Positions 1,682-15,525 of a DNA stretch of 22,718 nt are shown piece by piece. The notes below the pieces were generated by a model that saw only the letters and a program-made list of their open reading frames with translations, searched no databases and was not told the DNA's origin. A program made the position numbers and the translations under genes. Within the stretch, counting starts at the first letter, position 1; every line of letters starts with the position of its first letter. Origin of the DNA: a virus. The stretch is taken from positions 1 to 22,718 of the IMG/VR virus record IMGVR_UViG_3300046751_000420; one strand, given 5' to 3'.

Positions 1682-4600
1682 TTATCTTCCTGGAGGTCCT
1701 CTTCTTTGTGTTGATGCAAAACTGCCACCACTGTTACGGTAGCTGTCACCCTGTCCATACTCGTTATATAAATAAGAATCTACCCTTTGATCTAGTGCAC
1801 TAGATGTATTACCCGTTAATGTATTTGTTACTCCACCCAAGAAACTAGATCCACCCCTTGCTAAGTCACTGACGATTGGAATATTAAAGTCTCCTATTGT
1901 ACTCAGTAAGTCCGAGCCTGCATTTGTGTATTGTCCTATGTAACCACCTGGGTCTCCTAGTATATCTAAACCTTTGCTGTAAATTCCCACTGTTTGCTCT
2001 AACTTTTGTAGATCGTACATAGCCTTTTCTATAGCATTTGGTTCACCAGCTTGCTCTGCTATTCTTAGATTAGATTCTGCTCTACGTAATGCATCTGCAT
2101 TGTATGATGCTTGTTGTTCATTGGCAAATCCCTGCAGTGATAAGTTAGTAGCAGTCCCCGAATCAAAGGTAGGAGATATTGTACCTGTGCCGTAGCCACT
2201 ATCACCTAAGAAAATGTTTTGGAACTGGTTATCTATTGCCTCCGATGTATTAAATAAAGTTGTGTAATCCCTAGTAGCTCTGTCCTCTCTTACGTTTCCG
2301 AGATCTTGTAACTCTGCAATTCTTTGTAGCATTGCAACTTCGTCACCTTGTCTACCAGTAGCAGCAGCTTTTGAATATGCTTCTTGTCTTGCTGCCTGTA
2401 CCTCTGATGTAGTAAACGGAGTATCTATCTCTTGTGCAGAACGTCTGGCTCTCTCTTGCATAAATTGTAGTGCCTCTAATTTTTCTGGCTGCAAGTTTCG
2501 TAATTCATCACGGTATGTTGCACCGTATTGTCCTATTAAATCAAGGTCTTCTTGTTTCTGTATAGAACGTAACTGATTACCTACTCTCTGTTCTTGTTCT
2601 GCTATACCAGCTGCAGTTCTAAGTGAAGATTCTGCAGCAAGTCTATCGTATTCTTCGGAGATACCTAGAATGGAGGATAGTCCCTTACCTCTATATTGTT
2701 CTGGGTTGGGTGCTCCAATCATTACAGCATACTCGTATGCTACGTCTGGTCTTGATGTGTCTGTTTCTTCTGCCACGGTTTGAGTTTGGTTTGCTCCTGT
2801 AGCTATTGTACCACTTGTGTCAAAGATTGTGCCCTCAAGTCCTGGAGTTGTTCCAGTAAATACTTTAGGTACGACACCAGTAGCTTTAGCTGCAGGTTGT
2901 GTTGTTGTTGTTTCTGCTGTAGGTGTAATAGGAGTTGTCTCAACGGGTTCAGTTCCTGTTTGTGTTGATCCTATTATAGGTTGTGTTGGTTCTGTTATTG
3001 ATCTAGTTTGTAAAGTTGTTGGATCATATACTAAATCTGAAATATCTTTGTCTACTATAGATGCATCCTTTTGTATCATAGGTACAAATGCTTTCCCTGG
3101 TTTTCTAAAGATACGAGATAAAGTATCTTCTATTTCATCAACAGGTTCTTCAGGTTCTTCTGGTGTCTCAGGTTCTTCTGGTGTCTCAGGTTGCTCTGGT
3201 ATCTCAGGAGTTTCAATAGGTTCTTTTCCAGGTGCATATATAGGACCTCCTTCAGGTGGCTCAGTAACTACTTCTGTATCTGTGTCTGTATCTGTATCTG
3301 TATCTGTGTCTGTGTCGGTATCTGTGTCGGTATCTGTGTCTGTATCTGTGTCTGTATCTGGCTGTTCTCCTGTTCCTGGGGCTATATCTATGTTATATGC
3401 TGGACTAGATTTGTAGTTATCAATAGCTTCTTTAATTATCTCATTAAGTGTATTTTCGTCTATCTCGGATCCACCTAAAAATTCAGATAGGTAATCACTG
3501 ACTGCATCACCCACAGCAGTATCAACGTGCTCCTGTGTATAAATAGTCGGGTCATTCTTGACGTAATCTGCTATAGCATCTTTCTCTGCCTGTGTTAATG
3601 TTTCCCCGAACTCTTCTTCTTTAGCAGTTATAGCTGCATCAATAGCTGCTTGCTGTTCTTCTGCCGTAAACATAGTACCAATGGTTGCTTGTGCATCAGC
3701 TAGTTGACCTTCAAGGTCTGTAACTTGTGCCTGCAATCCATCTCTCTCTGAAGTCAAGGTGCTAACATTTTGATTTGCAGAATCTAAATTACTTTGTAAA
3801 CCATCACGTTGACTAATTAATCCATCAATCTCTGATTGATCTGCAGTAGCATCTGATTCTAATGCAGCAATACTTTCATTGAGGCCTGCAATGTTTGTTT
3901 CTAAACCTTGTACAGTTGCTTGTTCTAATGCTAGTGCATCAACCTTAGCTGCAAGTTGTTCTTCTAATGATAATTTATCTGCCTGTAAACCTGTAATCTG
4001 TCCCTCTAATCCAGTTACCGTAGTGCCAAGTGTAGCTATCTCTGATTCTAAAGAGTCTACTTGAGTTAGTAATCCATCACGTTCGGTTGTTAGACTTGAG
4101 ATATTTTCATTTGCAGTATTTAAACTTGTATTTAAATTTGATACTTGTGACTCAAGTCCTTCTTTCGTTTCTATTAGGCCTGCTTTCTCATTTTCTAATG
4201 TAGCTATAGCAGCATCATCAACTACGGCCTCGTTTTGTAAGTCAAGAATTTGTTGATCTAATCCATCAATCTGTGTATTTAAATCAGTTATCTGCCCTTC
4301 AGCAGTAGTTAAATCAGACTCAAGGCCTTGTTTAGTTTCCTGCAGTGCATCAATCTCACCATCAAGGGTAACAACCTCAGCATTCAGGGTAGTTACTTCT
4401 CCTTCTAAAGTAGTAATAGTTTCTGCTTGTTCTCCTATAGTAGTTTCCTGTGCCCCTATAGTAGTTTCTTGCTCTCCTATAATACCTTCTTGTTCTGTTA
4501 TTGTACCCAGTGCACTACTTAAATCCTTATTAGCTGCATCTAACGAACTCTGTGTATTAGTTAGTTCTGTATTTAAAGTATCAATACTTGAATTAGCATC

Positions 4601-7600
4601 AGATAATTGTCCCTCTAAAGTTTCAACGTTTTCTTTTAGTTCTTCTTTTTGTGTTTCTAGTCCAGCCTTTTGATTCTCTAGATTCAATATAGCCAGAGAA
4701 TCTATAGTTGCTGCATTCTTTAAGTTATCTATCTGAGTATCAAGTCCTTCAATCTGTGTATTTAAATTTGTTATGTTTGTATTAGCATCAGACAACTGAC
4801 CCTCCAGGTTAGTCTTAGTTGTATTAAGTCCTGTGATCTGTGTATTTAAATTTGTTGCTTGAGTATTTAATGCAGTAACCTCACCCTCAAGGTCAGAAAT
4901 AGTTGCTGCTTGTTCATTTATAGTAGTTGTTTGTGTACTAATAGTATCTTGGTATCCCACTACTTGTTCTCCAAGAGTAGTAATAGTTTCCTTCTGTGTA
5001 TTGACATCTGCCTCTAGTGAGCCAATTAAATCAACCTGATTGTCTATTGTAGTATTTTGTGAAGTAATAGTGTCCGACTGTCCTAATATGGTAGATTCTA
5101 ATTCTGTTATATCTGATGCTGCTTGAGCTTCTATATCTACTATTTGATTTTGATAGTATACAGAATCCTTTTTCCAAAATTCCCTAGACATAGAATAGCC
5201 AACCATGTCATTCACAAACTTTCTTATCTGTGCTTCATTTGTTTCATTAATGAAAGCAGGATCTATTTGATCCATATAATCATCTATGGCTTTTTCTTTT
5301 CTTTCATTATGTGATAGCCCATCATAAGGTTTTGTAGACAGAGGATCTCCAGGTGGCACTCTGTATTCCACCATTTCTCCTGTCCTTTCATTTAGAACAC
5401 TTACGGACTCATAACCTAATAATGATAATGCAATATTTTGATTTATATTAGGTAATGTAAAATCTATCTGTGCTTGTAAGTCTGCTTCTGCAGTATCTAA
5501 ATCTCCTTGCACAGAATCTAATTCATCTTGCTTGGCATCTAATTCACTTTGTTTAGCTGCTACATCTGCTTCTAATCCACTAATAGTACTTGTTTGATTT
5601 GTTACTGTACCTTGTAGTGTGTCTATTGTCTGAGACTTAGAATCTATATCAGCTTGTAAGCTAGTAACATCAGCTTGTAGTGTATCAACGTCTGATATTA
5701 AACCATCTCGTTGTGATTTTAAATTAGTTATTTGGGTGGACTGACTTGCAAGATTTGTTTCTAACCCACTAATAGTTGTATTTGCTTCTGATACTTTTGT
5801 ATTTAAATCTGTTATAAGTAACTCTTTATCAGCCAATGCCTCTTGTCTTGCTGCTAAAGTATTGCTCTGATCATTTATTATATTGTCTTTATTCTCTATT
5901 GCTACATTAAGACCTTTAATTTCAGCAACTTTATTTGTAACGTAATCATCGTACGTTGCTTGCAGTGAATCATAATCTGTTGTTAAGCCATTAATTTGAT
6001 TACCAAGATCAATTATACTTTTATTCTTAGTACTTATATTTTGTTGTGCTGAAGTAAGTTCAGTATTTAAACGTGTGTTCTCAGTTTGTGCTGCATTGAG
6101 TTCCTGTGTCTTACTATCTAAGTCAACACTCAGGGAATTAATATCGTTTTCGTAACCTGTGTTTTGTTCCGTCAAGGAAGCTATAGTAGAATCTAAATCT
6201 GTATTAGCTTGCTCTAATCCCTGTATTGTATTATTTAAGGTGTTAACATTTTCTGTTAAAGATGCAATGTTATCTTCGTCTACTAATGCAGCAGCTTGTG
6301 CTTGATCTAATTCACTTTGTGCTTGTGTTAAGTCAGCTTCTAACTCGGTTATAGAATTTTCGTTATCTAATTTGTTTTGCTCTAAACTTTGTATAGTTGA
6401 CTGATTGGCACTTACTGTTTCATTTAAGTTAGAAACTTGTGACTCTAATCCAGATACTGTTGTAACTTGTTGTTCTATGGTACTAGCTTGTGTTGCTATT
6501 TGATTATTTAAATCAGTAACATCTGACAATAAGTTATCACGTTCTGTTGTTAGCCCCTCTACATCAGAAGTTAATTCAGCTATAGAATCATTAGCATCTT
6601 TCACTGCTTCTTCTGCATTTAGTTTTTCGTTTGTGAGTTGATCTATATAAAATTGATCAACCATAGATGCTGCTTGTGCATTTTGTAAATCTACATTTGC
6701 TTGATTTAAAGCTATCTCTGATTGTCTTTTTTGTGCTTTAAGTGATCGTATGCTAAGATTCTTTTCAGTAATACTAGTACTTAAATTTGATACTTGATTA
6801 GATAAAGTGGTTACATTCCCCTGTAATTCTGCTATTGTATTTTCCTGTCCAGTAATAGTAGTAGCTTGGCTACCTATGGTACCCTCTAACCCTGCAATTG
6901 TAGTACCTTGTGAAGATATTGTTTCGGCTTGTGATCCAATAAGTCCTTCTTGTTCTGTTACAGTTTTTTGTGCATTTGACAACTCTATGTTTTTGGAATT
7001 TAATTGCTCACCAAAAAAACCAATTAAAGAATTAGAATCATCTAGTTGTTTTTGTAGAACGGTTTGATTGTTTTCATAAGTGCTTACATCATTTTTTAAA
7101 GTTTCAATTTGTCCAACCATAGAATCTATAGTTGCTTGACTTGTAGAACTATCTTGCCGTGCTACGTTTAATTCTTGCTCTAATGTTTGAACTTGTTGTG
7201 TAGCATTATTGTAATCATTTGTTACTTGTGTTAATTCATTAGATACATTGTTGTAATCAGCTTGTGCATCATTGTAATCCTGTGTTATAGAATTTATCTG
7301 GTTCTGTAAATTAGATATTGTATTGTTTGCTGTATCTAATTCACCTTGTGTAGGCCCAACATTAACATCAAGATTACCTGAACTATTAGGATCATAAGGT
7401 GTACTCCAACTGCTTCCAAATTCTGTAACAGTAGGAGTTCCGAAACCTTCTGGTATTTCAATTGTAGTGGGTAAATTTATTGCAACGTCTGAATCTCCTT
7501 CGGGTGCAGTGTATGCAGGAGGTGCCTCTTGCTCAAACCCTGTGCCTGATTCTGAATTTGTCGGAGCAATACCACTTGGTGGTGTTTGATTCATTAAATA

Positions 7601-10600
7601 ATCAAACGTGCTCTGATTGTAATTATCATCATTGACGGTGCCTGTTGCCTCAACGTGTGTAACTCCTAGTTCATCAACGAATGAATTACCAAATGTTGGC
7701 TCCGTTGCCATTCTATCTACGTCATCTATGTAGCTGTTCCCTGCATCTTGTACATCGGACAAGTACCATCCTTTGCTCGGATCCTTTGGATCATAGGTGT
7801 ATCTATTAATTTGATTCAACCCCTTGTGTACTCCTGGATCCCAAGTCATTCCTTCTGAATAATCAGCACCTGAAACTTTTCTTTCAAATGTACCGTTGAG
7901 TTCATTGTAGGTAACACCAGTTTGGTTTTCCCCAAACGTAAATACTTCACCTTGTGGTGCACCCATGTCGGAAGTTACTGGAACCCACTGTCCGTTTCTT
8001 ACTACGTAGTCTACCCCTTGTCCGTATAAGTCTTTAATCACGGCTTCACCGTATTCGTTTGATTCAAGTTTAGCTAATGGAGACCTATAAGGTTCTACGT
8101 CACCACCTACCAAATCATATATTTCAGTTAACAACGGTTTTTGTTCTGTACCTGTTTCTCTATACCAAGATACTCCTGCTTCGTTCATAGGTACGTAGTT
8201 TCCACTAGCATCTTCCCATAGCACTTCTACGTTGCTAGTAGTACCAGAAGAACTTACAGAAGTACCAGAAGGTCCTTGAACTAATGATGGATTGTTAACA
8301 TCATCAGAGGGTAACCTGTCACCGTATTGTTGTACAAAATTTCTATAGTACGGAGAAACAGCCGTGTATCCTAATTCACCCGTGTCATCCCCAGGTGCAA
8401 TACCACGTCCTGTGGATAAATCTACATCGTACTTATCTACTACCTGGTGGTATATTGCTTCGTAACCACCTTCATAACTTGTATAAATTAAATTACCTAA
8501 ATCATCATACTGGTACCCGTCTTCCCCTGGCACAATTGTTTCACCGTATCTAATTTCTTGTCTGTGTAGTTCAGATGCCTCTGGATCTATTGCAGGTCTT
8601 CCATATGCATCGGTTGGATAATCAGGGTTTCCGTCTTCGTTATTATCTCCAAACTTTCTTATATCACTTAAGTAATCTTGCCTCTGTTCGTAGACCTTAA
8701 CGTCTAATCCTTGGATTTTTCCATCATCGTCTATATCTTGACCCGTATGTTTTTCAGCATAATCTATACCATAATATTCTACGAAGTCATCGTACTTATC
8801 TGGATCTGGGTATTTGTATTCTTCAAGTAATTCGTCCTCTCTATCTTGTGCATCTTGATTTAATTTATTTAGAGCAGTACGAGCTTGATCATTTGTAATA
8901 TTACCGTTGTCTCGTTGTTGTTTTAAATTTGCTCTTGCAGAATTGTATGCACTTCTGGCTTCACCAAAACTACGTGCTGAACGAACATTACCAGCTGCAG
9001 TTGCCCTATTATATGCAGCTTGGGTACTTGTTTGTTTTTTACTACTTGGTTTACTTGAACTATATTTACTATTACCTCCAGTCCTTATTGTAGTGCCACT
9101 TGTGCCCTGCATGGAATAATTACTAGGGCTCATACCTAGAATATCTGCAGGATCTACTCTACCGTCATCATCACTATCACTACTGAATCCAATATTAGTA
9201 TAATTGTTATTTTCAGCAAGATGAGATTGTTCAAAGTTTACACCTGTTTTATACTGTGGTTTTCCTGTACCTGCATTAGTGTGAACATCATTTAACTGAA
9301 AATTCATTTCATGTTTTTGTTCACCACTTGGATGCAACACACCTGTTTTGGCAGCAATATTATTGAAAGCAGCTTTCTCTAATATATTTTGCACCATATC
9401 AGCATGCCTGCTCATATCGTACATGTTTGTATTAGTACTTAAACTATGATCATAAAATATATGGTATGCAAAGTTAAGTGGTGTCTCCTCATCGTCCCAA
9501 TCTCCTTGCCAACCAGAATCTCTCCAGGCTTGATATTCACCTTGTATTACGTCTTGAAAATAAGGTATAGCTGCAGTAATCAACGGGCCGTAATCAGTTA
9601 TTTTAACACCTTCAATACCATCAAACCAACTGTATGGATTTTTAGTTAACATGTTTTCTGCTAACTGATCCAATTGTGCAGTTGTTATATTATCTTCTAA
9701 GCCTTCCTTTCCGTTGTAAAAATTATATAACTCCTGTGCAGACATTTCTTCGTACAAAGGCAACAACAAATCATCTTGAGAAAAACCTAAATCTGTTGTT
9801 ATATCAAACTGGTCAAAAGAATTTGCATAGTCCACAGCTTCAAGAAGGGATTCATATCCTAAGTTATCTACAGTATTTGGGTCTGCACCTGCATCTATAA
9901 GCCACTGTCTTGTTTCAGTTACTATAGCATTTTCTTCTTCTGCTCGTGCTTCAGGTGTAGCTTTGTTATCAAACCATGACAAAAACATTTGTTCAACCAT
10001 ACTAGCAGTAAATCCTGGTTGATTTGACATAAACGTCCACTTGTCAGTTTCGTTGCCGTTAATGTCTATGAAATTATTTTCATAAAGGTATTCACTCCAT
10101 TCCTCTGCTGTGTTTGGTTGCAATGCATCCCCAACAATGTTTAACATAGATCCTACAAACCCAGCACCTTGTGCTAATCCTACTTTATTTAGAATTATTT
10201 CACCAGCTTTTCCCCCTATGAGTCGATTTATACTTACTCCAAGTCTTTGTGTTTGATCCGTAATTAAATCTTGAACTACAGCAAATATATTACCTGGTTG
10301 TGTAAGTTCCGAAGGTGGTGGTATGTCGTATGCTCCTTCTTGTATACCACTAAGAACATCATCACGTACCATGTAATCGTAAAAGTTCTGAAAGAAATCC
10401 TGACCTAAGTTATCGTTACTTACATCAAATAATAAATTAACAGAGTTTGGAACTTTTACCGTAGTACCATCGGGTCTCCGTGCAGTGTCTTCTATAACAC
10501 GAGCAGTAAGCTCTGCAGCATTAGGTACGTATATGTCGGGTAAATCAGACTTTGTAATCTGTTCAAATGCAGATTTAACAAGGTTGATATTCATGTTCAT

Positions 10601-10783
10601 TTGATCAACATCAAATATATTCCAAGCAAACTTATCCCCAGCTTCACCTCCGTACAAAGAAGCAAGTATCTGCACCGTTTTACCTAGTGCAGTTCTCTGA
10701 CTACCTGATGCTGCAATCTCCTCTAAGTTTGCTTGAGAGAGGGGATTATCGTAATCAAAAGTATTGTCTGTTGTTTCGTACAT
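1682..10783 (-). CDS. Giant 3033-aa virion protein with long coiled coil, EF-hand-like loops and Asp-Thr repeat
   Basis: A single uninterrupted frame of 9.1 kb. The ATG (10781-10783) shares a base with the upstream stop (TAATG) and has no visible Shine-Dalgarno, so translation probably depends on coupling to the fibre gene. Layout by residue: 1 to about 500, a mixed globular region with a hydrophobic amphipathic stretch near 185-215; 536-547 and 683-694, two 12-residue loops fitting the EF-hand/dockerin pattern DxDxDGxhxxxD, plus a degenerate third at 713; about 550-1140, Tyr/Gly/Asp/Ser-rich, probably beta or disordered; about 1150-1774 and 1877-2400, coiled coil with Ile/Leu heptads; 1775-1876, a non-coiled insert; 2476-2503, 14 Asp-Thr dipeptides; 2504 to about 2560, Pro/Glu linker; about 2650-3033, helical Ala/Gln/Arg-rich C-terminus ending in a Gly/Ser-rich tail. 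Its place after the nozzle and fibre genes suggests an internal/ejection protein fused to a fibre-like stalk, or a very long fibre. No family is recognised. Confidence 0.9.
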   Translation of the reverse strand: MYETTDNTFDYDNPLSQANLEEIAASGSQRTALGKTVQILASLYGGEAGDKFAWNIFDVDQMNMNINLVKSAFEQITKSDLPDIYVPNAAELTARVIEDTARRPDGTTVKVPNSVNLLFDVSNDNLGQDFFQNFYDYMVRDDVLSGIQEGAYDIPPPSELTQPGNIFAVVQDLITDQTQRLGVSINRLIGGKAGEIILNKVGLAQGAGFVGSMLNIVGDALQPNTAEEWSEYLYENNFIDINGNETDKWTFMSNQPGFTASMVEQMFLSWFDNKATPEARAEEENAIVTETRQWLIDAGADPNTVDNLGYESLLEAVDYANSFDQFDITTDLGFSQDDLLLPLYEEMSAQELYNFYNGKEGLEDNITTAQLDQLAENMLTKNPYSWFDGIEGVKITDYGPLITAAIPYFQDVIQGEYQAWRDSGWQGDWDDEETPLNFAYHIFYDHSLSTNTNMYDMSRHADMVQNILEKAAFNNIAAKTGVLHPSGEQKHEMNFQLNDVHTNAGTGKPQYKTGVNFEQSHLAENNNYTNIGFSSDSDDDGRVDPADILGMSPSNYSMQGTSGTTIRTGGNSKYSSSKPSSKKQTSTQAAYNRATAAGNVRSARSFGEARSAYNSARANLKQQRDNGNITNDQARTALNKLNQDAQDREDELLEEYKYPDPDKYDDFVEYYGIDYAEKHTGQDIDDDGKIQGLDVKVYEQRQDYLSDIRKFGDNNEDGNPDYPTDAYGRPAIDPEASELHRQEIRYGETIVPGEDGYQYDDLGNLIYTSYEGGYEAIYHQVVDKYDVDLSTGRGIAPGDDTGELGYTAVSPYYRNFVQQYGDRLPSDDVNNPSLVQGPSGTSVSSSGTTSNVEVLWEDASGNYVPMNEAGVSWYRETGTEQKPLLTEIYDLVGGDVEPYRSPLAKLESNEYGEAVIKDLYGQGVDYVVRNGQWVPVTSDMGAPQGEVFTFGENQTGVTYNELNGTFERKVSGADYSEGMTWDPGVHKGLNQINRYTYDPKDPSKGWYLSDVQDAGNSYIDDVDRMATEPTFGNSFVDELGVTHVEATGTVNDDNYNQSTFDYLMNQTPPSGIAPTNSESGTGFEQEAPPAYTAPEGDSDVAINLPTTIEIPEGFGTPTVTEFGSSWSTPYDPNSSGNLDVNVGPTQGELDTANNTISNLQNQINSITQDYNDAQADYNNVSNELTQVTNDYNNATQQVQTLEQELNVARQDSSTSQATIDSMVGQIETLKNDVSTYENNQTVLQKQLDDSNSLIGFFGEQLNSKNIELSNAQKTVTEQEGLIGSQAETISSQGTTIAGLEGTIGSQATTITGQENTIAELQGNVTTLSNQVSNLSTSITEKNLSIRSLKAQKRQSEIALNQANVDLQNAQAASMVDQFYIDQLTNEKLNAEEAVKDANDSIAELTSDVEGLTTERDNLLSDVTDLNNQIATQASTIEQQVTTVSGLESQVSNLNETVSANQSTIQSLEQNKLDNENSITELEADLTQAQSELDQAQAAALVDEDNIASLTENVNTLNNTIQGLEQANTDLDSTIASLTEQNTGYENDINSLSVDLDSKTQELNAAQTENTRLNTELTSAQQNISTKNKSIIDLGNQINGLTTDYDSLQATYDDYVTNKVAEIKGLNVAIENKDNIINDQSNTLAARQEALADKELLITDLNTKVSEANTTISGLETNLASQSTQITNLKSQRDGLISDVDTLQADVTSLQADIDSKSQTIDTLQGTVTNQTSTISGLEADVAAKQSELDAKQDELDSVQGDLDTAEADLQAQIDFTLPNINQNIALSLLGYESVSVLNERTGEMVEYRVPPGDPLSTKPYDGLSHNERKEKAIDDYMDQIDPAFINETNEAQIRKFVNDMVGYSMSREFWKKDSVYYQNQIVDIEAQAASDITELESTILGQSDTITSQNTTIDNQVDLIGSLEADVNTQKETITTLGEQVVGYQDTISTQTTTINEQAATISDLEGEVTALNTQATNLNTQITGLNTTKTNLEGQLSDANTNITNLNTQIEGLDTQIDNLKNAATIDSLAILNLENQKAGLETQKEELKENVETLEGQLSDANSSIDTLNTELTNTQSSLDAANKDLSSALGTITEQEGIIGEQETTIGAQETTIGEQAETITTLEGEVTTLNAEVVTLDGEIDALQETKQGLESDLTTAEGQITDLNTQIDGLDQQILDLQNEAVVDDAAIATLENEKAGLIETKEGLESQVSNLNTSLNTANENISSLTTERDGLLTQVDSLESEIATLGTTVTGLEGQITGLQADKLSLEEQLAAKVDALALEQATVQGLETNIAGLNESIAALESDATADQSEIDGLISQRDGLQSNLDSANQNVSTLTSERDGLQAQVTDLEGQLADAQATIGTMFTAEEQQAAIDAAITAKEEEFGETLTQAEKDAIADYVKNDPTIYTQEHVDTAVGDAVSDYLSEFLGGSEIDENTLNEIIKEAIDNYKSSPAYNIDIAPGTGEQPDTDTDTDTDTDTDTDTDTDTDTDTDTDTEVVTEPPEGGPIYAPGKEPIETPEIPEQPETPEEPETPEEPEEPVDEIEDTLSRIFRKPGKAFVPMIQKDASIVDKDISDLVYDPTTLQTRSITEPTQPIIGSTQTGTEPVETTPITPTAETTTTQPAAKATGVVPKVFTGTTPGLEGTIFDTSGTIATGANQTQTVAEETDTSRPDVAYEYAVMIGAPNPEQYRGKGLSSILGISEEYDRLAAESSLRTAAGIAEQEQRVGNQLRSIQKQEDLDLIGQYGATYRDELRNLQPEKLEALQFMQERARRSAQEIDTPFTTSEVQAARQEAYSKAAATGRQGDEVAMLQRIAELQDLGNVREDRATRDYTTLFNTSEAIDNQFQNIFLGDSGYGTGTISPTFDSGTATNLSLQGFANEQQASYNADALRRAESNLRIAEQAGEPNAIEKAMYDLQKLEQTVGIYSKGLDILGDPGGYIGQYTNAGSDLLSTIGDFNIPIVSDLARGGSSFLGGVTNTLTGNTSSALDQRVDSYLYNEYGQGDSYRNSGGSFASTQRRGPPGR
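3275..3358 (-). repeat. In-frame hexanucleotide repeat encoding (Asp-Thr)14
   Basis: Fourteen tandem 6-bp units inside the giant gene encode residues 2476-2503 as an unbroken Asp-Thr dipeptide repeat. On the plus strand the units are tgtatc, tgtgtc or ggtatc, so the Asp codons mix GAT and GAC and the Thr codons mix ACA and ACC. The repeat is therefore not a freshly slipped identical array. It is followed by a Pro/Glu-rich linker, so it probably acts as an acidic flexible spacer between the coiled-coil stalk and the C-terminal helical domain. Copy number may vary between related phages. Confidence 0.95.
3586..7336 (-). repeat. Coding region of degenerate coiled-coil repeats (residues about 1150-2400 of the giant protein)
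   Basis: The translated region is almost entirely heptads with Ile/Leu/Val at core positions and Thr, Ser, Asn, Gln, Asp and Glu elsewhere, and almost no Pro or Trp. Two recurring kinds of unit are visible. One is a run of seven-residue units of the form TIxxQxx (for example TTIGEQETTIGAQETTIGEQ). The other is a longer module centred on a segment like A-x-V-D-x-x-x-I-x-x-L-x-x-x-K-x-x-L, seen in at least five copies (such as SMVDQFYIDQLTNEK, ALVDEDNIASLTENV, AVVDDAAIATLENEK). The coil is broken once, at 4.1-kb-distal residues 1775-1876, by a segment containing Pro, Trp and Tyr. Repeats are degenerate at DNA level, so they look old rather than newly amplified. Confidence 0.85.
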
Positions 10784-11361
10784 TAGTAACCAATAGCAAA
10801 CCAGTTAATGTGAGTAGCTCCACTAGTGTGAATTACGTCAAAATGGTCCGTTGCTATATTGTCTAATGAGGCACCTGTTAAATCTGTTCCCTTTTCTGAT
10901 GTTACTTGCACTGACATAATAGCTGTACCAAAGGCTGCACCAAATGTAATTGCAGTTGTTGTTCCAGATACGGCTGCTCTACCCATTTTCATAACTAAAC
11001 CATTAGGAAGTGTTACACTTTCTTCGGCCCCAAATGTTGTAGGTGTAAATCCAGATTTACTTACATCCGTTGTTGATACTTCGGTTACGTTTGCTGTACC
11101 ACCAGATACATTTCCTAATAACTTATTGTCTGCTATTTGTGCAATCTTTGTTAGGCCAACTTGATTTACGTTTATGTTAGCATCATTGATTGTACCTACG
11201 GAGAGAACTCCACTGCCATTGACATACACTGTACCTGTGGAAGTACCGTTGCCGTCTACAGCATTAGCATTTAATTTAGCATTTGTAACAATACCATTAA
11301 GTCCTGCTGCCGTGACTTGATCGTTGTTACTAAATTCTTGTGTTGTTTCTATACCTGCCAT
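10783..11361 (-). CDS. Short tail fibre protein with gp53-like C-terminal domain
   Basis: The 192-residue product joins the nozzle gene upstream and the giant gene downstream through TAATG one-base overlaps. Residues 1 to about 105 are rich in Asn, Gly, Val and Thr, with short repeats typical of fibrous beta structure. Residues about 118-192 fit the C-terminal domain found on many tail fibres (gp53-like family): NGLVMKMG, then a Thr-rich beta hairpin ending in ITFGAAF, and the terminal HINWFAIGY. In that family the C-terminal domain folds as a small trimeric beta structure at the fibre tip. The protein therefore probably contributes to host recognition, or caps or attaches a longer fibre. At 192 residues it is short for a complete fibre, so it may act with the giant protein or the lectin-like protein at 15906-16832 (inference). 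Confidence 0.75.
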   Translation of the reverse strand: MAGIETTQEFSNNDQVTAAGLNGIVTNAKLNANAVDGNGTSTGTVYVNGSGVLSVGTINDANINVNQVGLTKIAQIADNKLLGNVSGGTANVTEVSTTDVSKSGFTPTTFGAEESVTLPNGLVMKMGRAAVSGTTTAITFGAAFGTAIMSVQVTSEKGTDLTGASLDNIATDHFDVIHTSGATHINWFAIGY

Positions 11362-13640
11362 TATTTTATTTCTTGTGTTGAGTTAAATGAAAGACCACCT
11401 GTTACTTTTATAACTTTAATTTTTGGTTTACCTGAAGTTACTTCAACAGTGCAATCACAACCGTAAGCTCTCCTGTTACCTATTCTACCACGTATGGAAA
11501 CATCTTCGTTTCTATCTAGTTCTGCACCTAAAAATCGAGAGCCAGATATAGGGCCAAGGTCCATAACGTCATCGGCATTTTCTGTAGTAAAAGTTATGTT
11601 GGCATCCGATGTTGAATTTTCACTGGACTCTAGTTGTAGTTCAAATGTATTCCATTTCTTTCTTTGTATATCTTTAAAATTAAATTGTCTTGTTCTCATT
11701 TTAGCTTCAATAGGTACAGACTGTGTTCCTCCTCCTATTCGTGTAACAACTGAATCATCGGATCCCGATTCATTGGCATCAATTCTATGTAATCCACCCA
11801 AATCATTTACTACGTATACACCACGAGCATCTCCGTCACCTACAACAATTAAATTATCTATGTTCCAATTTACAAAATTACCGTTAGTATCGGTTTCCCC
11901 CACTGTGTCTACACTTTCCCATTGTCCATTTAAAAAATTAAATATTAAAATAGTATTAACATTGGAAGGGTAAAATCCACCAACACCAGGAGCCTCATTT
12001 AATAACGGAACTGCAATATAGTACCTATTGTCAAAGTACACAGCTATTGATTTATCATAAGAAGCTCTGTTAATATTATCTATTGTATTTTGTATAGGTT
12101 CACTTAGTGGTGTGTCATTCCCACGTAAATTGTACAAATCTTGAAACGATAACCCGTACACTCCGTTGTCTGATAAAAATATTATTTGATTTCCTACTTG
12201 TACGATTGATTTCCTAGCAACTAGTCCTAACTCTGAAGTCAATAAAGTTTTTACCATATTTTTTAAATTAGTAGTGCTAGAGAAACTGTAAATACTGTCC
12301 CTCATAAATACTAATAATTTGTCCTCAGTAAAAGAAAATATACCTTTGATCCTGTCATCACCACCTTGATTTAAACGGCTTTTACCAAATACAGGATCGT
12401 ATACACCTGGTTGTTCTGCTTGTGAAAATAAAACTTCATCCAGTATATCACGAGATACTGGGGTTGATGCATCGTTGTAAGTAAAAGGTAGAACCATTCT
12501 ATCATTGTGAAATACTCCGTACTCTGATGCTGGCATATGTATGTATCCACCACCTGCTGGTAGTCTACCCATGTATTCTACTTTGTGTGAGGTTAAATCT
12601 GATACTTCAGCAAAGAAATGGAACTGATTAACTGAATCTACATTTACTCTGTACGTGTCTCCAACTACTAAGCCAGAGCTACCTTTGTCTATAATTACTA
12701 TTTCTTGTCCATTGTCTAGATTGTGTGCTGTTTCAGAAACAGTTACTTTACCATCTTCAATTACAGTATTGCCTGAAGAACCTAACAACTTAGGCTGTGT
12801 AAAAGAACCGTTAGGAACTTTTGTAAAATTAGGGGTACCTGTTAAATCACCGTTCCATTCTAGTGTAGTCTTTCCTTCTCTAAATAAATAAACTCTATTA
12901 AATGCTTGTATTAAATCACAAGATTCTCCTATTTGTATAGCACCACTATCGTATAGTATATCAAAACTATCAGGTGTTCCACTTCTGTCTATGCCTTCTA
13001 ATCTGTTAACATTTACTGCAACGGCTTTTGTATTTCCTGCTAGTATTATATAAGGACTACCTGTAGCTTTGGGATCCTCAAATAAAGCAGATCCATAAAC
13101 TTGTGTTATAATTGTATCCTGTAGTTGTTGTGCCCCTATAGATGTTTGCCCCGAAGCTGTACCACCAAAAGTAGCTGCAGTGTCATTAATAGTTATTCTA
13201 GTAGGAGTATTAACAACAGCTTGATAATTTCCTGCAGTAAATCCAGTCAACCCAGGGATGGTATCTACAAACATTCTAGTAAGGTTAACCACGTTGTGAT
13301 CAGTAGCAAAATCAAGTTGTATTGAAGTAGTGCTTAACCTAGTTACAGAAGAAGTAGATAAATTATTAGACGTAGTTGTACTATCATCTGGGATACCATA
13401 AACATAAAATGGCAAGGTAAATGCTGTATTACTACTTAATGTAAGTGGTGCCTTAGATACCTTTATTCCGTTACGTACTTGTGCTACACCTTCTTTTTTA
13501 AATCTAAAATTATTTGCTTCTTGTAGCATACCAGGAGATAAACTATCTGGACGTGCTCGATTATTAAAGCCGACAAATGTACTATCTAGATCATCAACGT
13601 ACTTTACATCGTACTCACCGTATGCTTCATATCTTGCCAT
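11361..13640 (-). CDS. Tail nozzle (tail tubular B-like) beta-propeller protein
   Basis: The 759-residue product starts at ATG 13638-13640 directly after the preceding TAA, with a Shine-Dalgarno (AAGGTGG) embedded in the last codons of the upstream gene. The N-terminus (residues about 20-60) has the pattern seen at the start of phage nozzle proteins: a Leu/Ser/Pro 'SLSPGMLQEANNFRFKKEG' segment followed by R-x-G. Repeated blades of the type KLLVFMRDSIYSFS, NQIIFLSDNGVYGLS, RYYIAVPL and NTILIFNFLNGQWESVD across residues about 430-600 indicate a beta-propeller. This resembles the fold of T7 gp12 and P22 gp10, which close the distal end of the short tail. A His-His or signal motif is absent. Placement just after the accessory block and before fibre and internal proteins fits a podovirus tail. 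The fold call is stronger than the exact homologue. Confidence 0.7.
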   Translation of the reverse strand: MARYEAYGEYDVKYVDDLDSTFVGFNNRARPDSLSPGMLQEANNFRFKKEGVAQVRNGIKVSKAPLTLSSNTAFTLPFYVYGIPDDSTTTSNNLSTSSVTRLSTTSIQLDFATDHNVVNLTRMFVDTIPGLTGFTAGNYQAVVNTPTRITINDTAATFGGTASGQTSIGAQQLQDTIITQVYGSALFEDPKATGSPYIILAGNTKAVAVNVNRLEGIDRSGTPDSFDILYDSGAIQIGESCDLIQAFNRVYLFREGKTTLEWNGDLTGTPNFTKVPNGSFTQPKLLGSSGNTVIEDGKVTVSETAHNLDNGQEIVIIDKGSSGLVVGDTYRVNVDSVNQFHFFAEVSDLTSHKVEYMGRLPAGGGYIHMPASEYGVFHNDRMVLPFTYNDASTPVSRDILDEVLFSQAEQPGVYDPVFGKSRLNQGGDDRIKGIFSFTEDKLLVFMRDSIYSFSSTTNLKNMVKTLLTSELGLVARKSIVQVGNQIIFLSDNGVYGLSFQDLYNLRGNDTPLSEPIQNTIDNINRASYDKSIAVYFDNRYYIAVPLLNEAPGVGGFYPSNVNTILIFNFLNGQWESVDTVGETDTNGNFVNWNIDNLIVVGDGDARGVYVVNDLGGLHRIDANESGSDDSVVTRIGGGTQSVPIEAKMRTRQFNFKDIQRKKWNTFELQLESSENSTSDANITFTTENADDVMDLGPISGSRFLGAELDRNEDVSIRGRIGNRRAYGCDCTVEVTSGKPKIKVIKVTGGLSFNSTQEIK

Positions 13641-13877
13641 TTAACATTTCCACCTTTTTAAAGCCAGTGACTTACGTGTTGGCTTACCCTTTGAATCTTT
13701 CATTGGGCCCTTTACACCAGACATCCTAGCACAAAATGATTTTTTTCTACTTTTATCTTTACCTTTTGGGTTTGATTTTGTTACTGGTGGTTTTAAATTT
13801 GCACCAGTAGTTCTCTTGAAGTGATCTCTACCTGCTTGTGTTAAGCCACCCTTAGAACTTTTATGCTTGGCTTTCAC
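13641..13877 (-). CDS. Small basic conserved phage protein, 78 aa (DUF6321-like), GTG start
   Basis: The start is GTG at 13875-13877, overlapping the TGA of the upstream 41-residue gene by four bases (GTGA); no ATG lies near in frame. The product is about one third Lys/Arg. The C-terminal half carries the segment KSFCARMSGVKGPMKDSKGK followed by PTRKSLALKRWKC. I recall this signature from many marine phages, including T4-like cyanophages, where it is annotated only as a domain of unknown function (DUF6321, from memory). Two Cys (near residue 49 and the last residue) flank the conserved part and could form a disulfide or metal site. The terminal codons also supply the ribosome-binding site of the nozzle gene. 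The basic charge suggests nucleic-acid contact or virion packing, which is untested inference. Confidence 0.8.
   Translation of the reverse strand: MKAKHKSSKGGLTQAGRDHFKRTTGANLKPPVTKSNPKGKDKSRKKSFCARMSGVKGPMKDSKGKPTRKSLALKRWKC
13650..13656 (-). promoter_or_regulatory. Shine-Dalgarno of the tail nozzle gene
   Basis: On the minus strand AAGGTGG lies nine bases before the ATG at 13638-13640. It is formed by the Arg-Trp-Lys codons at the end of the upstream basic protein. It supports the chosen start of the nozzle gene. Confidence 0.6.
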
Positions 13878-13999
13878 TTTTTCTTTTTCGGAAATCCTGC
13901 CTTCATGTTAGCATAAGCCTTTGGGCTAATCGTAGATTTAGATTTGGATCTACTTGTACCAGCCTTCTTACGTTTGTTTATGTTCTTATATAAACTCAT
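13874..13999 (-). CDS. Small basic conserved phage protein, 41 aa
   Basis: ATG at 13997-13999 (one base after the TAG of the upstream gene) to TGA at 13874-13876. Translation begins MSLYKNINKRKKAGTSRSKS and ends in KAYANMKAGFPKKKK. About 15 of 41 residues are Lys/Arg. I recall near-identical short proteins in many marine phage structural regions, always unnamed; the conserved points are the MSLY start, the KKAGTSR-S segment and the AYANMKAGFPKKKK end. It overlaps the next gene by four bases (GTGA), so the two are probably co-translated. Size and charge suggest a virion-packaged or nucleic-acid-binding peptide, but the function is unknown. Confidence 0.8.
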   Translation of the reverse strand: MSLYKNINKRKKAGTSRSKSKSTISPKAYANMKAGFPKKKK

Positions 14000-14000
14000 A

Positions 14001-14294
14001 CTAAGCCATACCTCCTGGTCTCATACCACCTTGCATTCCACCAGGTGCCATTCCTGGGCCTCTATTGCCCCTAGGAGCTCCTTGCTGTGGCATTTGAGGT
14101 CTACCCCCTTGTGCCATCTGTGGACGTGGTTGTGGACGTGGTTGTGGACGTTGTCCTTGTGGTGCACTAGATAGACGTTGCTCCAGTTGTGAGATACGTT
14201 TTTCTAATTGTGCTAATGAATTTTTAGCAGGTGCCTTCTTAGTAGGTGCTTTCTTAGCTACCTTCTTTGTAGGTTTCTTTTTTTTGTCGGCCAT
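14001..14294 (-). CDS. Lys-rich / Gly-Pro-Gln-rich low-complexity protein, 97 aa
   Basis: ATG at 14292-14294, one base after the TAA of the 30-residue gene, to TAG at 14001-14003. Residues 2-24 are histone-H1-like (repeats of KK, KKAP and AKK). Residues about 25-42 form a short Leu/Ile heptad helix (LAQLEKRISQLEQRL), likely a dimer or trimer coil. The remaining 55 residues are disordered Gly/Pro/Gln/Arg/Met-rich sequence with QPRP repeats (encoded by a local DNA repeat at about 14122-14150) and a GGM/GPGM tail. Strongly basic overall. The architecture, a basic tail plus a small coil plus a disordered arm, suggests DNA or RNA binding or a flexible virion appendage. No family is recognised. Confidence 0.75.
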   Translation of the reverse strand: MADKKKKPTKKVAKKAPTKKAPAKNSLAQLEKRISQLEQRLSSAPQGQRPQPRPQPRPQMAQGGRPQMPQQGAPRGNRGPGMAPGGMQGGMRPGGMA

Positions 14295-14295
14295 G

Positions 14296-14388
14296 TTATT
14301 TTTTCTTTGTAGGTTTTTTAGCTGCTTTTTTAGCTGCAGCCATTCCAGCTCTAGTATACGGGTATTTTTTTCCTCTTACGTTTGGCAT
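14296..14388 (-). CDS. Very small Lys/Ala-rich protein, 30 aa
   Basis: ATG at 14386-14388 to TAA at 14296-14298. The product begins MPNVRGKKYPYTRAGMAAAK and ends in a run of Lys/Ala/Pro/Thr resembling a histone H1 tail. I recall similar tiny proteins (MP-V-GKK-PYT--G-AAAKKA) from marine phages, so I take it as real. It starts four bases after the TAA of the upstream membrane protein and ends one base before the next ATG, which also supports coding. Function unknown; probably nucleic-acid-contacting or virion-associated. Confidence 0.7.
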   Translation of the reverse strand: MPNVRGKKYPYTRAGMAAAKKAAKKPTKKK

Positions 14389-14392
14389 AATG

Positions 14393-14800
14393 TTATTTAA
14401 TTGCTGATGAACCAAAGTAGTAACCCACAATGGCCAAGATTGTTTGTCTGATTTCGGGTAGTATTAAGTACCCTGATAAAGTTTCGTATTTAATCCCTGA
14501 TATAATTCCAAATAACCAAGACTTTTCGGATCCTACTGTTATACCTTCTGGGCTGTGTGCTAATAAAAACGGTGCTATAACTACAGCAAACAATACAGTA
14601 ACTACTATAAACCTACGAGTCCACTCACCTCCACGGGTAGATGCCTTATCGTGACTTTCATCTGCTGCCTTTTGTTTTGTAACCATGCCCTCTACTTGGG
14701 CTTTGTTCATGTTGATACTAGCTGTAACCATAGTTCCAACTAATTTACTTATGCTACCTAAAGCACTACCTAAGAATAAACTAATGGTTTCGTCCGTCAT
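14393..14800 (-). CDS. Holin-like membrane protein, 135 aa
   Basis: ATG at 14798-14800, two bases after the glycosyltransferase stop. The N-terminus (residues 5-27) is an amphipathic or weakly hydrophobic helix, 30-62 is polar and charged, TM1 is about 64-81 (FIVVTVLFAVVIAPFLLA), residues 95-103 are moderately hydrophobic, and TM2 is about 117-130 ending in VGYYFGSSAIK. The order of helices and the terminal YFGS...K resemble 3-TM phage/GTA holins, which form pores or release lesions in the inner membrane to let endolysin reach the cell wall. No endolysin is in the window. A second holin candidate lies at 15525-15683, so one of the two may be an antiholin, or one may be unrelated to lysis. Confidence is high for a membrane protein and moderate for holin. 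Confidence 0.6.
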   Translation of the reverse strand: MTDETISLFLGSALGSISKLVGTMVTASINMNKAQVEGMVTKQKAADESHDKASTRGGEWTRRFIVVTVLFAVVIAPFLLAHSPEGITVGSEKSWLFGIISGIKYETLSGYLILPEIRQTILAIVGYYFGSSAIK

Positions 14801-14802
14801 AA

Positions 14803-15525
14803 CTATTTTATTGTATCATACTGGTCTATACCTTTTTTATTTATAACAGCATAGTGTTGTTCTTTTATATTTACCTTGTGATCATTGATTGGATTATATA
14901 TATTGTAATAATAAAGTGCTTCATCTATGTGTATAACTCTATCTTTGCCTGCCATCTCTAACATAGCATACATATACGGCACATCACTACCTGCACCCAT
15001 TAATTTATTTTGTTCAGTAAAAAAATCTTCGGGGTTTACCTTATCGGATAAATGTTTTTTCCACCCACGAAAATGATGTAAACTATATCTTTGATCCCGA
15101 ATGGGTTTATCAAAATCTGGTATACGTGACTTACGTAATTTATGATATGTAAAACTACCTATGTAATAATTTCCACAAAAAAGCCAGTTGTCTTTAATGT
15201 TACTTTGAACTGTACGTACAGCATTAGGCAAAAGCATATCGTCTCCGTCTATTACTCCTACTAATGTTTCTGGGTTTTTAATTAACTCCTTTGTTAACTT
15301 ATATTGCAAATACCCTGGTGTTCTACTACGTTTGTTCGTACGGAGTATCAAACGATTTTTACTTTTGTATTTTTTTAATTTATCAAATGTAGTGTCAGTG
15401 CTGCAGTCATCTACAATTATGTGTCCAATGTCATCTCCTTGATTTATACAACTCTGTACACAATCATCTATATATTTTTCTGAATTGTAAACACAAGTTA
15501 TTAGTACAAAGGATTGATCCAGCAT
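14803..15525 (-). CDS. Family 2 glycosyltransferase (GT-A fold), 240 aa
   Basis: The 240-residue product starts at ATG 15523-15525, overlapping the stop of the holin-like gene by one base (TAATG). Near the N-terminus it has FVLITCVYNSEKYIDDCVQS, the usual GT2 first strand and helix. It has VDDCSTD at 38-44 for nucleotide contact and DGDD at 93-96, the DxD-type metal/sugar-nucleotide motif. A possible catalytic acidic residue lies in the D/E-rich segment near 165-170. GT2 enzymes transfer a sugar from a nucleotide-sugar to an acceptor such as polysaccharide, lipid or protein. It has no membrane segment, so it is probably soluble, and it is close to a minimal GT-A domain. In a structural operon it may glycosylate virion proteins or modify host surface sugars (inference); the acceptor cannot be read from sequence. 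Confidence 0.85.
   Translation of the reverse strand: MLDQSFVLITCVYNSEKYIDDCVQSCINQGDDIGHIIVDDCSTDTTFDKLKKYKSKNRLILRTNKRSRTPGYLQYKLTKELIKNPETLVGVIDGDDMLLPNAVRTVQSNIKDNWLFCGNYYIGSFTYHKLRKSRIPDFDKPIRDQRYSLHHFRGWKKHLSDKVNPEDFFTEQNKLMGAGSDVPYMYAMLEMAGKDRVIHIDEALYYYNIYNPINDHKVNIKEQHYAVINKKGIDQYDTIK

Follow-up and report, generated by a model that had tools for sequence, protein, structure and literature searches.

What do four tiny, strongly basic proteins do for a phage that encodes them in a tight row beside its head and tail genes? The question is raised by a 22.7-kb (22,718 nt) viral fragment, IMG/VR record IMGVR_UViG_3300046751_000420, the whole of which is the window analysed here. A first-pass annotation had proposed peptides that condense DNA in the head or bind RNA. 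We consider it reasonably probable that this cassette encodes small basic proteins that reside in the phage head alongside the packaged DNA and function much as the internal proteins of T4 do. DUF6321, the family of one of the four, and its partner families are already catalogued but unexplained. As far as our searches go, the link between these tiny podovirus genes and a modular virion protein of T4-like phages appears to be undescribed; a literature search returned no paper naming DUF6321.

A tandem cassette of basic genes

Four tandem minus-strand genes were confirmed, here called p30, p97, p41 and p78 (30, 97, 41 and 78 aa; Table 1). Gaps of 1 nt separate p30 from p97 and p97 from p41, while p41 and p78 overlap by 4 nt. 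Their placement in a head-tail module also holds. The 759-aa product of the gene that p78 abuts matches head-closure Hc3 and structural families weakly and shares 40% identity with a protein of phage C75C1 annotated as head closure. The major capsid protein of the window is of the SU10 type, and scaffold and portal genes, assigned by position only, lie upstream. No head protease was recognised within the 22.7-kb fragment.

Table 1. Features of the window discussed in the text
Feature	Position	Strand	Description
p30	14296-14388	-	MPxVxGKKYPYTxxGxxAAKK peptide, net +11
p97	14001-14294	-	Lys-rich N-terminal part, short stretch resembling a coiled coil, tail rich in Pro, Gln and Gly, net +18
p41	13874-13999	-	MSLYxNINxRKKAGTSR family, two predicted helices, net +14
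p78	13641-13877	-	DUF6321 member with GTG start; three-helix mini-domain predicted, net +22
p135	14393-14800	-	Membrane protein, phrog_38283 (E 7e-38); 5' neighbour of cassette
759-aa head-closure/tail gene	11361-13640		Abuts p78 (0 nt)
3033-aa coiled-coil protein	1682-10783	-	Very acidic (net -340, pI 4.1), TDTDTD repeat
Family 2 glycosyltransferase	14803-15525	-	PF00535

The four products have pI values of 10.9-12.0. The remaining genes of the window reach at most 8.4, with the next most basic at 8.4 and 8.0 and the rest acidic or near neutral. A Lys plus Arg content of 25% is attained by only 3 of 161 other ORFs of 25-100 aa, one of the three being p30 read from an upstream start, so the basic quartet is not due to chance. 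The 3033-aa coiled-coil protein, in an internal-virion or tail position, has a charge strikingly opposite to that of the small basic proteins. The glycosyltransferase gene sits within the structural gene block.

The histone H1-like KKAPAKK tails that had been attributed to two of the proteins are not there literally. The actual Lys-rich segments are KKVAKKAPTKKAPAK at the N-terminus of p97 and AAAKKAAKKPTKKK at the C-terminus of p30. Nor does the likeness to such tails suit p78 and p41, for which the models indicate, at fair to high confidence, helical mini-domains whose conservation is sequence-specific.

Comparison with a sister contig

The gene order of the window (p135-p30-p97-p41-p78-head closure) recurs in a sister contig, L353, with identities of 100% for p41, 97% for p78, 97% for p30 and 93% for p97. 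The few differences between the two give dN/dS values of 0 for p41, 0.13 for p78, 0.085 for p30 and 0.40 for p97. The quartet therefore consists of genuine genes, whose order is kept in a sister phage under purifying selection. Between the two contigs, dS is 0.08-0.20 for the block from p135 to p78 and 0.67-1.18 for the capsid, glycosyltransferase and tail genes. As the block is far less diverged than these other genes, it seems to move as one piece. The scaffold is likewise near-identical in the two, the capsid, glycosyltransferase and tail genes being far more diverged, and this mosaic divergence suggests recombination.

The exact four-gene set was found in the window and L353 only. The idea that the four form one conserved set fails for p97, which is confined to near relatives: it was found in L353 and, diverged, in phage C75C1, where it sits just before the head-closure gene.

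The families of the cassette

The protein p78 is a full-length member of DUF6321 (Pfam PF19846; E 2.3e-28, 99.1 bits against a curated cut-off of 28.5), its residues 5-76 aligning to positions 1-72 of the 72-position model. It carries the family signature, GGL...G, R..SF..R and a C-terminal R...W, and an alignment of 83 sequences has G10, G11, L12, G16, R44, S47, F48, R51, R68 and W76 as invariant residues. At a permissive E-value limit of 1, 552 phage records match p78, the majority from cyanophages and pelagiphages. Partial matches to the E. coli phages KarlJaspers and morffagbaw (E 0.3-0.8) were discarded. Among PHROGs, DUF6321 corresponds to phrog_4689 and to the C-terminal ends of phrog_727, 3477, 10346, 11180 and 28131. 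A cellular origin was rejected: across 84,980 genomes (species) the domain occurs on just 55 contigs, mostly from MAGs or single cells, and a domain so scarce in cells is essentially a phage domain.

The AlphaFold model of p78 has three helices (pLDDT 90.4, pTM 0.67). A search against sequences of solved structures gave no match up to E 10, and comparison of the model with the PDB (Foldseek, VIA-align) matched no fold; significant matches in BFVD were to DUF6321-type proteins only. With no solved fold matched, the idea that p78 binds DNA rests on its charge. A zinc-finger reading was rejected since both cysteines are lost together in variants (FCARM to FAARF, WKC to WGF), which makes metal binding inessential to the family. 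Variants lacking both conserved cysteines occur in L071, L074, L076, L080, L087 and L090, with a C-terminal extension.

The second protein with distant relatives is p41, which belongs to phrog_25774 over its whole length (E 1.2e-25, positions 1-41 of 42). It has the same MSLYxNINxRKKAGTSR core as this family, which has members in 34 phage records, including Syn5 gp59 and HTVC019P. In HTVC019P it is a small gene between the scaffold and capsid genes; here it overlaps p78. The first-pass claim that two of the four are known from very distant marine phages thus holds for p78 and p41. The AlphaFold model of p41 has two helices (pLDDT 85, pTM 0.38). In these modelled mini-domains, the near-invariant residues of p78 and p41 point to a defined binding surface, not a disordered polycation tail.

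The family of p30 is looser than those of p78 and p41. The match of p30 to phrog_33179 is weak (E 7e-4, 28 of 42 positions), and a tblastn search of the phage collection gave no match, so the family rests on relatives from IMG/VR. These align with p30 on the pattern MPxV..K...Y...G...AK..AK, and in several loci they lie near p78. Of 80 p78 loci, 27 have a member of the family of the conserved membrane protein p135 (phrog_38283), directly next to p78 in 7. In a MedDCM phage, a relative of p41 overlaps the match with a gene annotated DUF3154, a family that we take to be holin-like; p135 is possibly holin-like.

Gene neighbourhoods across phages

Conserved co-occurrence is seen for the p41-p78 pair and for a wider cassette of small basic genes, not for the exact quartet. 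The pair adjoins in many loci with unrelated heads. Isolates that have both p41 and p78 include Pelagibacter phage HTVC119P and Methylophilales phage MEP301. Many of the contigs are truncated; p41 was present in 14 of the 80 loci gathered by p78 (11 of the 14 overlapping or within 10 nt) and p78 in 29 of the 80 gathered by p41 (24 of the 29 within 400 nt). Small basic genes concentrate around p78, making up 70 of 256 genes (27%) within 1 kb versus 8 of 286 (3%) beyond 2 kb (p 2e-17). The recurrent neighbour families are GLYANIH (p41-like), WVRIG..PCG..CLP, YPSAYAN, KHM and MPKVGKK (p30-like). Some mini-genes next to p78, in L031, L029 and others, resemble DUF5872 below its cut-off; DUF5872 also figures among the families listed for an algal giant virus (PMC12085832).

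In 195 of 197 loci the genes lie on the strand of the nearest marker for head or tail. The distance to that marker was no shorter than random, because structural genes are dense in these loci. We have therefore used gene identity and strand, not distance, as positional evidence.

Fused relatives in T4-like cyanophages

Whereas the window has DUF6321 as a stand-alone 78-aa gene, T4-like cyanophages often carry it as the C-terminal module of a larger protein, whose gene lies between terS and terL. These fused proteins also contain relatives of several of the mini-gene families that adjoin p78. Among 57 DUF6321-bearing proteins, 11 are matched by the WVRIG mini-genes and 6 by the YPSAYAN mini-genes; among 725 others the corresponding counts are 7 (p 2.5e-9) and 0 (p 1e-7). 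L116, L296 and L311 each have DUF6321 fused to a GLWxNIH module, for which profile comparison shows a relationship to p41 (hhalign probability 95%, 24 columns); phrog_11180 and phrog_28131 are GLYANIH-DUF6321 fusions, and phrog_727 has four modules in separate segments.

Two of the larger proteins are reported from virions. S-CREM2 ORF137, with DUF6321 at residues 412-490 (E 7e-16), was detected in purified particles by mass spectrometry (4 unique peptides, coverage 4.1%; PMC10665884 Table 3), an assay that does not place the protein within the particle. S-SCSM1_29, with DUF6321 at residues 445-515, bears the GenBank label 'virion protein'; this label is its virion evidence, and the S-SCSM1 virion was analysed by mass spectrometry (PMC9602691). 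Two further leads were dropped. The 'structural protein' label of S-P4 (T4-GC0119) was set aside because the text of its source paper calls T4-GC119 hypothetical, and the text of the P-SCSP1u cryo-EM paper includes neither mass spectrometry nor hypothetical proteins, so it has no bearing on the DUF6321 gene of that phage.

The internal proteins of T4 enter the prohead by means of a 10-residue capsid-targeting sequence that the head protease later removes (PMC7697877). T4 ipIII begins MKTYQEFIAE/A. Resembling it, the L137 protein begins MKTFSEYLNE and passes directly into DUF6321, and S-SZBM1_192 begins MKTFKQYITEA. An earlier, stricter scan of N-termini only found such motifs in 5 of 54 DUF6321-bearing proteins versus 15 of 582 others, a weakly significant difference (p 0.02); 12 of those 15 others are encoded directly downstream of a DUF6321 gene. 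A broader scan made afterwards, counting internal copies as well, gave 10 of 43 versus 23 of 662 (p 8e-6), and 15 of 35 cases have a protease-like site, [LIVMF]xE[AGS], within the 25 residues ahead of DUF6321, versus 239 of 2226 background windows (p 1.6e-6), though the compared sequences are related and the p-values therefore overstate independence. The clearest case is L116, which runs MKSFNEFSE/G, a CWDGYK module to VKE/G, a GLWDNIH module to VEE/G, and then DUF6321. In Kyanoviridae (L089:8219-8545, L092:14312-14629 and similar), the gene immediately downstream of DUF6321 often has a start of the targeting type and belongs to a MKSFKQFLSESVNI.GDFNG family, probably a further head-interior protein. 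A targeting sequence of the MKTYQEFIAE type is absent from p30, p97, p41 and p78.

Further observations also count against a place in the head interior. Syn5 gp59, of the p41 family, carries no structural annotation, and S-SZBM1_192, for all its targeting-like start and DUF6321 domain, is not on the virion list of S-SZBM1. In-silico trypsin digestion yields no peptides of at least 7 residues from p41 and only 2 from p78. With so few usable peptides, p41 and p78 are expected to appear rarely in proteomics lists, and standard virion proteomics may overlook them.

Discussion

We propose that the small basic proteins would be incorporated into the head during assembly, stay there with the packaged DNA and be ejected with the genome. 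The genes of the window may correspond, in unfused podovirus style, to modules that in T4-like cyanophages are joined into one capsid-targeted protein, which the head protease of those phages may cut apart. Residence in the head, one part of the first-pass proposal, is favoured because larger DUF6321-bearing proteins are reported from virions and because of the T4-type targeting peptides. For this phage, we infer the presence of the cassette proteins in the virion and the head interior, their contact with DNA and their ejection; any direct binding to DNA is suggested by their charge. The case for a role in the head is best for p78, next best for p41 and weaker for p30, whereas p97 is assigned to it by charge and position only.

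The likeness to IPI, IPII and IPIII of T4 lies in small proteins that would reside in the head with the DNA, and in the same kind of N-terminal targeting peptide that DUF6321 relatives in T4-like cyanophages can carry. The differences are that no sequence homology was seen, that p30, p97, p41 and p78 lack a targeting peptide, and that the fragment has no recognised head protease. Another comparison is T7 gp6.7, a tiny ejected podovirus virion protein encoded near head genes, but it is a single gene and not a cassette.

Being carried in the virion does not by itself fix the function. The same location would serve cargo that acts after ejection, namely effectors binding a conserved host target (e.g. 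nuclease, RNA polymerase, ribosome), with charge only aiding packing with the DNA. T4 IPI* is a known precedent for an internal protein acting on a host target after ejection. Predicted folded mini-domains with specific near-invariant residues across unrelated heads exceed the needs of a generic condenser, and the combinatorial cassettes look like effector repertoires. Yet no effector homology was found, the genes sit in late morphogenesis modules, and conservation over phages of cyanobacteria, SAR11, Methylophilales and Roseobacter would demand a universal target. We regard effector cargo as rather unlikely.

Explanations that remove the proteins from the finished particle fare less well. In T7-like phages, the usual place of stand-alone p78 is between the genes for scaffold and capsid, and p41 often directly precedes terL. 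These positions, like that of the fused protein between terS and terL, would suit assembly factors acting on scaffold, portal or terminase. We find such a role improbable, given the reports of fused DUF6321 proteins in purified virions and the targeting-like peptides, which point to entry into the head. The same two observations, together with the enrichment of cleavage sites, make it very improbable that these are RNA- or ribosome-binding proteins of late infection, unrelated to the particle and placed among structural genes for late expression only. Their small size and high Lys and Arg content do recall ribosomal proteins, and one neighbour family gives a sub-threshold hint of ribosomal S7 (E 0.1), but no RNA-binding family was matched above threshold.

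Beyond this locus, and more tentatively than for the head-interior role itself, marine phages of unrelated architecture might draw on a common set of interchangeable head-interior modules, small and basic, kept as mini-genes in podoviruses and as a capsid-targeted polyprotein, cut by the protease inside the head, in T4-like phages. Phages that infect Synechococcus, Prochlorococcus and SAR11 commonly carry DUF6321 and its partner mini-genes, none of which has a listed function. The head-interior link, if true, would supply a testable role for several of these orphan families simultaneously. It would also mean that one set of proteins exists in two formats, as separate genes and as a possible polyprotein.
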